DNA of 40,586 bases from Acetobacteraceae bacterium AT-5844 (GTDB lineage Bacteria; Pseudomonadota; Alphaproteobacteria; Acetobacterales; Acetobacteraceae). Positions 31,362 to 33,152 of the stretch are shown piece after piece. The first letter of the stretch is position 1. Every line of letters starts with the position of its first letter. The notes beneath the pieces are model-generated. The model had not been told where the DNA came from, made no database searches, and saw only the letters and a program-made list of their open reading frames with translations. The position numbers and the translations under genes are program-made. The DNA is taken from contig JH599921.1 of the NCBI GenBank assembly GCA_000245075.1, positions 1-40,586 of the forward strand, in the 5' to 3' direction.

Positions 31362-32495
31362 TCAGAACAGCGCGAGCTGGGTCGCCTCGCCGGGCTTGGG
31401 CGGCACGCTGAACAGGTCGCAGCGCAGCCCGGCCTGGGAGGTGTGGCCCTGTTTCGTGCGGTCCAGCCCCAGCCGGCGCACGGCGACCTGGAAGCGGTGG
31501 CCGAGCATCTCGGCATAAGGGCCGGTGCCGGTCTGCCGCTGGCCGATGCGGCTGTTATAGGCCGCGCCCTCACGCGTCTGCCGCACCAGGGACATGACGC
31601 GCTCGGCCCGGTCCGGCATGTGCTCGCGCAGCCAGGCCTCGAAGAGACCGACGATTTCCAGCGGCAGGCGCAGCAGCACATAGCCGGCGCGCTGCGCACC
31701 ATGGGCGGCGGCGCGTTCCAGAATGCGCTCCAGCTCCATGTCGTTGACGGCCGGGATCATCGGCGCCGCCAGCACGGCGGTGGGGATGCCGGCCTCGGAG
31801 AGTTTTGTCAGCGCATCCAGCCGTTTTTGCGGGGAGGCGGCGCGGGGCTCCAGGATGCGCGCCAGGGCGCCATCGAGCGTGGTAATGGAAAGGCACACCC
31901 GTGCAAGGCCGCGCTCGGCCATGCGGGAGAGAATGTCGATATCCCTGAGCACACCTGAGGATTTCGTGACGATGCCGATAGGATGGTTGAAGCGTTCCAA
32001 CACCTCCAGCACCGCGCGGGTCAGCTTCAGCGTGCGTTCCACCGGCTGGTAGGGGTCTGTATTGGTCCCCATGGCCATGGGCCCCACGCGGTAGCCGGGC
32101 TTGCGGAGTTCCTTTTCCAGCAACTCGGCCACCTGGGGCTTGAAGATCAGCTTCGTCTCGAAATCGAGGCCCGGGGAAAAGCCCAGATAGGCATGGGTGG
32201 GGCGGGCGAAGCAGTAGATGCAGCCATGCTCGCAGCCCCGGTAGGGATTGATGGAACGGTCGAAGCCGATATCCGGCGAGTCGTTCCAGGCGATGGCGCT
32301 GCGGCTGCTGTCCTTGATGAGCGTGGTCGCCAGCGGGGGGAGGTCGGTGGCGTCCTCGCCCAGCGTGTCCCAGCCATCGTCGAAGGCGACGGTCGAGTGG
32401 CGGTCGAAGCGCACGGCCGGGTTGGTGGTGGCGCCGCGGCCCTTGCGTGCTCCGTTCAAGAGGACGGAGGCGTCGTGGAGGCTGCCGTCGGGCAT
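31362..32495 (-). CDS. PA0069-family (SplB-like) radical SAM protein
   Basis: This 377-residue radical SAM enzyme belongs to the group containing PA0069 and Rv2578c, relatives of spore photoproduct lyase. The 4Fe-4S motif is CEHGCIYC (Cys88, Cys92, Cys95) after INPYRG. Other family segments are FETKLIFKPQVAELLEKEL, GTNTDPYQPVERTLKLTR and VTKSSGVLRDIDIL. The reaction is not established for this group; repair of DNA photoproducts has been suggested by homology. The start ATG at 32495 follows AAGGGG at 8-nt spacing. A LexA-type box lies about 57 bp upstream. The gene converges on the beta-helix gene, 3 bp from its end. Confidence 0.85.
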   Translation of the reverse strand: MPDGSLHDASVLLNGARKGRGATTNPAVRFDRHSTVAFDDGWDTLGEDATDLPPLATTLIKDSSRSAIAWNDSPDIGFDRSINPYRGCEHGCIYCFARPTHAYLGFSPGLDFETKLIFKPQVAELLEKELRKPGYRVGPMAMGTNTDPYQPVERTLKLTRAVLEVLERFNHPIGIVTKSSGVLRDIDILSRMAERGLARVCLSITTLDGALARILEPRAASPQKRLDALTKLSEAGIPTAVLAAPMIPAVNDMELERILERAAAHGAQRAGYVLLRLPLEIVGLFEAWLREHMPDRAERVMSLVRQTREGAAYNSRIGQRQTGTGPYAEMLGHRFQVAVRRLGLDRTKQGHTSQAGLRCDLFSVPPKPGEATQLALF

Positions 32496-32528
32496 ACCGC
32501 GTTCCCCTTTCGTTCGGAGCGATGTTTG

Positions 32529-32551
32529 CGACTTCGCCTGCCGAGAGTCAA
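32529..32551 (-). promoter_or_regulatory. candidate -35/-10 region of the radical SAM gene
   Basis: Directly after the LexA-type box the minus strand reads TTGACT (32551-32546), then CTCGGCAGGCGAAGTCG (17 bp), then CAAACA (32528-32523). The -35 is near consensus and the -10 is poor. The box abuts the -35, as expected for repression by LexA. Confidence 0.35.
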
Positions 32552-32566
32552 GAACATCGAGAGAAC
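32552..32566 (-). promoter_or_regulatory. LexA-type SOS box, GTTC-N7-GTTC
   Basis: The minus strand reads GTTC-TCTCGAT-GTTC. Alphaproteobacterial LexA binds the direct repeat GTTC-N7-GTTC, and this is an exact match to that pattern, about 57 bp upstream of the radical SAM start. A further GTTC/GAAC pair lies nearby (32578 and 32598). Confidence 0.65.
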
Positions 32567-32612
32567 GAATGGTTAATGTTCTCCTCGGTCAAAAGGGGAA
32601 CGAGAGTGGCCC

Positions 32613-33152
32613 TCAGCCGGCGCGCAGATGCTCCAGCAACCGGGGCATCAGCTCCACCAGGTTGCAGGGCTTGTGCCGGGCATCGAGCTGGAAGCGGAGG
32701 ATGTCGTCCCACGCATCCCGCACCGCACCGGAGGAGCCGGGCAGGGCGAAGAGATAGGTGCCGCCCGCGACGCCGCCGATGGCGCGGGACTGGATCGTGC
32801 TGGTGCCGATCTTCTGGTAGCTGAGCATGCGGAACAGCTCACCGAAGCCGGTGATCTCCTTATCCAGCACGCGGTTGAAGGCCTCGGGCGTCACGTCCCG
32901 GCCGGTGATGCCGGTGCCGCCGGTGGTGATGCCGACATCTACCTCCGGGTCCGCGATCCAGCGGCGCAGCACGCTTTCGATGGCCTCGGCATCGTCGCGC
33001 ACGATGCGGCGGGAATGCACGACATGGCCGGCCTCGGCCACGCGGTCCGCCAGCAACTGCCCGGATTTGTCGGTGGTCAGGTCGCGGGTGTCGGACACCG
33101 TCAGGATGGCGATGTTGACCGGCAGGAAGGTCAGGCTCTCATCGATCGGCAT
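32613..33152 (-). CDS. moaB: molybdopterin adenylyltransferase-like MoaB
   Basis: This 179-residue MogA/MoaB-fold protein acts in molybdenum cofactor synthesis, adenylylating molybdopterin before metal insertion. IAILTVSDTRDLTTDKSGQLLADRV is the N-terminal signature. TTGGTGITGRDVTPEAF (76-92) is the substrate-binding loop, and GGVAGGTYLFALPGSSGAVRDAW (126-148) is also typical. It starts 12 bp after the stop of the GGDEF gene, with GAGAGGGG as ribosome binding site, so it is the last gene of the phosphorelay operon. No other molybdenum cofactor gene is in the window. Confidence 0.92.
   Translation of the reverse strand: MPIDESLTFLPVNIAILTVSDTRDLTTDKSGQLLADRVAEAGHVVHSRRIVRDDAEAIESVLRRWIADPEVDVGITTGGTGITGRDVTPEAFNRVLDKEITGFGELFRMLSYQKIGTSTIQSRAIGGVAGGTYLFALPGSSGAVRDAWDDILRFQLDARHKPCNLVELMPRLLEHLRAG

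Follow-up and report, generated by a model that had tools for sequence, protein, structure and literature searches.

The 40,586-nucleotide stretch of Acetobacteraceae bacterium AT-5844 analysed here (the window) contains a gene for a PA0069-family radical S-adenosylmethionine (SAM) protein, and the arrangement upstream of it suggests that this gene very probably belongs to the LexA/RecA SOS regulon, being repressed by LexA and induced by DNA damage. The predicted LexA site, operator 1, reads GTTCTCTCGATGTTC (minus strand, 32552-32566), an exact GTTC-N7-GTTC direct repeat beside a TTGACT hexamer and with 56 bp between it and the start codon, as the initial annotation had described it apart from a distance of about 57 bp. 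Its assignment of the downstream gene to the PA0069 type also holds, with 491.1 bits against the family model NF033668 at a cut-off of 360. A second exact copy of the motif, operator 2, had been overlooked; it is inverted relative to operator 1 at a start-to-start distance of 51 bp, ends 5 bp ahead of the start codon and covers the expected transcription start.

The PA0069 family is named by locus tag alone, its curated model being classed as a hypothetical equivalog. LexA control would imply that the activity of the enzyme is wanted during DNA damage, which narrows the search for its substrate.

Conservation of the operator across orthologues

The motif count of the window is poor evidence for a real site, with two copies against 0.66 expected by chance and at least two in 11 of 100 shuffles. 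Over the whole genome, GTTC-N7-GTTC occurs 95 times and the reversed control pattern 53 times, and about half of the GTTC-N7-GTTC sites may be background, which would leave room for a chance match. The site stands out beyond chance because it is conserved at the same position in orthologues, a conservation that the initial annotation had proposed to look for. Among the 150 genomes of the order sample, all of the same family, 70 carried the radical SAM gene above the NF033668 cut-off (69 located automatically, 62 of them with the box, and L015 added by hand). The exact box lay near the start in 63 of these 70, with at least one case in each of 23 genera, and operator 1 was present with at most one mismatch in its eight positions in 65 of the 70. 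The background was close to zero: 102 sites fell within 19.6 kb near the gene against one in 86.3 kb far upstream, control spacings of 3-13 other than 7 were seen in 0-3 of 69 genomes, and control words other than the GTTC motif in 0 to 7 of 69. The class sample comprised 92 genomes above the cut-off, of which 90 were examined, the own genome and a split match in G325 being left out; the exact box was found in 76 of the 90 genomes and in 60 of 70 families. The phylum sample of 52 genomes above the cut-off, after the own genome and 12 alphaproteobacteria already counted had been dropped and loci L333 and L342 rechecked, consisted of 20 further alphaproteobacteria, 18 of which had the box, and 19 orthologues from outside the class. 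The box was also present at 73 of 80 named loci, including Bradyrhizobium, Rhizobium, Azospirillum and Roseomonas, a set that overlaps the other samples and is not independent of them. This conservation refutes a chance match, to which we give virtually no probability.

Outside the class, the alphaproteobacterial box was upstream of none of the 19 orthologues, and CTGT-N8-ACAG was upstream of 12 of the 19 and absent from 14 kb farther upstream. The alphaproteobacterial motif inside the class, together with CTGT-N8-ACAG outside it, therefore marks the gene as a target of LexA type whose operator differs between the two groups.

Link between the motif and LexA

The initial annotation had read the repeat as a LexA site, for which the recA and lexA genes of this bacterium should offer parallels. 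The genome encodes both genes, each with the motif upstream (C114:31863-31877 for lexA and C24:12511-12525 for recA), and in the family the motif lies just upstream of lexA at 29 of the best-scoring 30 loci. In Caulobacter, the box GTTCttgttatGTTC, a form common in the wider class, is common to two SOS genes according to the available part of PMC12700426. In a hand count covering 27 of the 67 genomes that bear both lexA and the PA0069 gene, with upstream spans that differ between genes, the exact box preceded 25 of the 27 PA0069 genes, compared with 14 of the 27 recA genes; 10 of the 27 recA loci had been picked by recA score and 17 by the choice of the analyst. Operator conservation and the lexA and recA sites thus lend support to a membership of the radical SAM gene in the DNA damage response, as had been suggested.

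Genomes that appear to have lost lexA offer a further comparison. In genus g9, G010, G018 and G131 (the last assembled as a single contig) gave no match to the lexA models TIGR00498 or PF01726, and their congener G092 matched both. The lexA-less genomes are three of the four of this genus, whose genomes exceed 4 Mb. The box was missing at both the PA0069 gene and recA in the three and present at both in G092; in the whole comparison, the exact box at the PA0069 gene occurred in 0 of 3 lexA-less genomes vs 63 of 67 others (Fisher p = 6e-4, one genus). Mismatches affected 3 of 8 positions of operator 1 and 5 of 8 of operator 2 in the lexA-less three, G092 having 1 and 0, and all four retained TTGAC 56-58 bp ahead of a start codon. 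Such a pattern is as would be expected if LexA keeps the motif in place. Among lexA-bearing genomes without an exact box, G142, G117 and G051 had one-mismatch pairs at 51 bp, and G072 had mere remnants of boxes.

The opposed operator pair

A genome-wide search of the 150 genomes for two inverted boxes with a gap of 32-40 bp found the exact opposed pair in 34 genomes of 13 genera, at one place in each, and these were the same 34 genomes that have the pair in the region upstream of the PA0069 gene; the reversed control of the pattern matched in one genome. With at most one mismatch per box, the pair was present in 41 of the 70 same-family genomes, covering 16 genera, and its spacing was 51 bp in 24, 50 bp in 11, 52 bp in three and 47, 48 and 49 bp in one each (standard deviation 0.94 bp), the distance of the pair to the gene having a standard deviation of 33 bp. 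None of the 90 class-level orthologues had an opposed pair 30-70 bp apart. Eleven pairs were seen among the named loci, and that of L369 (43 bp) is probably due to chance. In genus g5 (L035, L040, L048 and L060), operator 1 took the form ATTC-N7-GTTC in all four, with an opposed partner 51 bp off, so that the LexA motif has perhaps shifted in this genus.

It could be argued that operator 1 is the sole LexA site and that operator 2 arises incidentally from a purine-rich ribosome-binding site. The spacer of operator 2 at the window locus, GAAAGGG, is purine-rich and resembles a ribosome-binding site as well, among the 38 paired genomes with a counted start, 19 have the first in-frame one 5-7 bp past operator 2 (3 of the 41 being without such a start), and operator 2 is missing in 24 of 65 genomes. 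We nevertheless regard this explanation as unlikely, since exact GAAC half-sites 7 bp apart and opposed to operator 1 recur in the 34 genomes, since the distance between the operators is nearly fixed while that from operator 2 to the next start varies from 0 to 67 bp, and since the lexA-less genomes show decay of both copies.

The predicted -35 is placed differently in the family and elsewhere in the class. Among 57 same-family genomes with an exact forward box, 43 have TTGAC immediately after operator 1, whereas in other families of the class 48 of 74 forward boxes have a spacer that itself starts with a -35-like TTG. In Acetobacteraceae the -35 would then be shifted downstream by one operator repeat (11 bp, approximately one helical turn), coming behind the second rather than the first GTTC, and operator 2 might compensate for this shift.

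A model of regulation and its weak points

From this layout it is reasonable to suggest the following course. In the undamaged cell, LexA would sit on operator 1, touching the -35, and in Acetobacteraceae a second LexA dimer would often occupy operator 2, which faces the other way and covers the expected transcription start; the core promoter, bracketed by two dimers, would then be shut. Upon DNA damage, RecA-promoted cleavage of LexA would free the promoter and the enzyme would be made. Binding at both operators, repression and damage induction are what we infer from the sequence. The restriction of the pair to the PA0069 promoter may hint that leaky expression of this gene is costly, and the pair could serve as a clean promoter for studying two directional LexA dimers on one RNA polymerase site.

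A Rhodobacter LexA has a dual action, and LexA on operator 1 could likewise activate transcription, with operator 2 supplying the repression. The abutment of operator 1 on the -35 in same-family genomes and the TTG at the start of the spacer elsewhere in the class would suit such a role. We consider it quite improbable, as genomes with operator 1 alone would have activation only and as the lexA-less genomes retain a plausible promoter.

Several observations weigh against LexA control of this gene as we propose it. The exact box is missing in 14 of the 90 class genomes and in two of the 20 further alphaproteobacteria, CTGT-N8-ACAG is missing in 7 of the 19 orthologues outside the class, and the genomes are related, so the counts are not independent. 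The comparison within g9 may amount to one evolutionary event. Of the 65 same-family genomes that have operator 1, 24 have no operator 2, so that some genomes can dispense with the pair. A Caulobacter SOS transcriptome paper names no radical SAM, photolyase, spore photoproduct or splB gene in its main text (PMC12700426). Finally, G272 (L210), from another family, has the box although no lexA was found by two models in its assembly of 410 contigs and 93% completeness. The last case could speak for a regulator other than LexA that reads the motif. Such a regulator is very improbable, given that the lexA loci themselves carry the motif almost throughout (29 of 30), that the three lexA-less genomes, all of one genus, no longer have the boxes, and that most of the orthologues outside the class (12 of 19) bear a quite different LexA motif instead.

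Relation to described SOS systems

A paper of 2012 predicted that splB is under SOS control in those alpha- and betaproteobacteria that have several chromosomes (PMC3323433), and its authors, in the available part, took predicted sites in two groups with different LexA motifs to mean that the regulation is functional. The splB of that prediction is like the window gene in being SplB-like, with predicted LexA sites in alphas and betas. The available part covers Rhizobiaceae, Brucellaceae, Rhodobacteraceae and betaproteobacteria and speaks of photoreactivation; its sections 7 and 8 mention neither Acetobacteraceae nor an opposed pair, and its splB may belong to the PA0069 family. The initial annotation therefore overestimated the newness of the finding: SOS regulation of splB-like genes would not be new, and the opposed operator pair appears to be the part for which no report was found.

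Other bacterial groups offer looser parallels. SplB (COG1533) figures in Bacteroidetes SOS networks (PMC8565304, in part), that is, in another phylum with other LexA motifs. The Streptomyces venezuelae radical SAM gene vnz_31145 is included in a table of LexA chromatin immunoprecipitation sequencing and mitomycin C RNA sequencing (PMC9380542, in part); this gene is actinobacterial and stands under another motif. Passages of PMC6473078, PMC9578287 and PMC1839093 contained no splB or spore photoproduct entry, one of them being checked for radical SAM and photolyase. No literature tying Rv2578c to LexA was found, and the name PA0069 occurred in three papers among those searched. Among the matches listed for LexA in Acetobacteraceae, one names LexA, a Gluconobacter phage paper, and none of the matches listed describes an opposed operator pair or Acetobacteraceae LexA sites, most subscription papers lying outside the search. 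PA0069 itself is presumably in the LexA list of Pseudomonas aeruginosa.

Predicted fold and possible function of the enzyme

Among the fold matches, spore photoproduct lyase (PDB 4FHC and mutants) comes nearest to the predicted structure, with Foldseek TM-scores of 0.48-0.53 that indicate agreement of the overall fold and a sequence identity of 14-16%. Lower-ranked fold matches were SuiB, TYW1, RlmN and viperin, which are peptide-, RNA- and nucleotide-modifying radical SAM enzymes. At the sequence level, the protein by itself had a single PDB match, with an E-value of 0.78; a profile search put SkfB first at 0.005 and behind it a globin-coupled sensor, NifB and DosC, none of them better than 0.04. 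No spore photoproduct lyase family was among the NCBIfam matches of the protein, and NCBIfam presumably includes a model of it.

Spore photoproduct lyase has a hydrogen-donor cysteine, C140, the residue altered in the PDB mutants. The PA0069-family protein differs from it in having no conserved cysteine beyond the three of the cluster, as judged by sequence alignment: only C87, C91 and C94 were invariant or nearly so among 31 aligned proteins, with no fourth conserved cysteine, and the same held in 23. The enzyme may act on damaged nucleic acid and so have a repair role. A considerable chance, though one we would not bet on, attaches to the gene being SOS-controlled and the enzyme not DNA-directed, its substrate being for instance RNA, protein or a small molecule that stressed cells require. 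The lower-ranked fold matches, the failure to find a fourth conserved cysteine and the modest TM-score to spore photoproduct lyase all point that way, and SOS control together with the closest fold match points to repair. Our results raise the possibility, to be held tentatively, that PA0069 is a widespread Pseudomonadota DNA-repair enzyme with an SplB-like fold and different chemistry, whose SOS control was kept through a change of LexA operator, and that two LexA dimers facing each other around the promoter would act as a clamp dedicated to silencing the Acetobacteraceae gene, through an operator form seen nowhere else in the 150 genomes.

Layout of the locus

The intergenic stretch between moaB and the radical SAM gene (32496-32612) holds both operators and the promoter on its minus strand (Table 1). 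As far as can be told, moaB is outside the regulated unit. A conserved link to moaB was considered and rejected, since a strict MoaB motif was upstream in just 3 of the 70 same-family loci and the neighbor thus seems not to be conserved.

Table 1. Predicted features of the radical SAM gene locus in the window
Feature	Positions	Strand	Remarks
Operator 1, predicted LexA site, GTTC-N7-GTTC	32552..32566	-	Upstream of and abutting the -35; kept in orthologues
Predicted -35, TTGACT	32546..32551	-	Immediately after operator 1
Predicted weak -10, CAAACA	32523..32528	-	17 bp past the -35; placed by position alone
Operator 2, inferred LexA site	32501..32515	+	Exact motif copy, inverted vs operator 1
PA0069-family radical SAM protein	31362..32495	-	377 amino acids; CX3CX2C cluster motif; NF033668, PF04055
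moaB	32613..33152	-	Upstream neighbor; TIGR02667, 251.8 bits (cut-off 222.4)

Other motif sites in the genome

Twenty box-bearing stretches of the own genome were inspected. Several of the boxes adjoin genes without an evident SOS link (EutB, a sulfonate-type ABC permease, an Sdh5-like protein and DUF952), and some further ones fall inside reading frames; part of the 95 sites is therefore background. At C25:185977-185991 (L168), an exact box lies 16 bp before a TIGR03916 gene, a second radical SAM candidate for SOS control; TIGR03916 is a putative DNA modification/repair radical SAM protein linked to uracil-DNA glycosylase. The box at C90:74309-74323 (L175) overlaps the region around the start of parE, for which SOS regulation in Sinorhizobium meliloti is reported in the available part of PMC3323433. 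Boxes at C7:17291 and C7:18606 (L161) and at C65:89996 (L160) stand about 20 bp ahead of three small open reading frames with like starts (MPxPTPN) and several cysteines each, two of which are near-tandem paralogues; a Pfam/NCBIfam search with them gave no match, and they are possibly small SOS proteins of unknown function. At C59:30966-30980 (L166), a box directly precedes an open reading frame with weak YdaS/Cro-like matches, which is perhaps a prophage switch.
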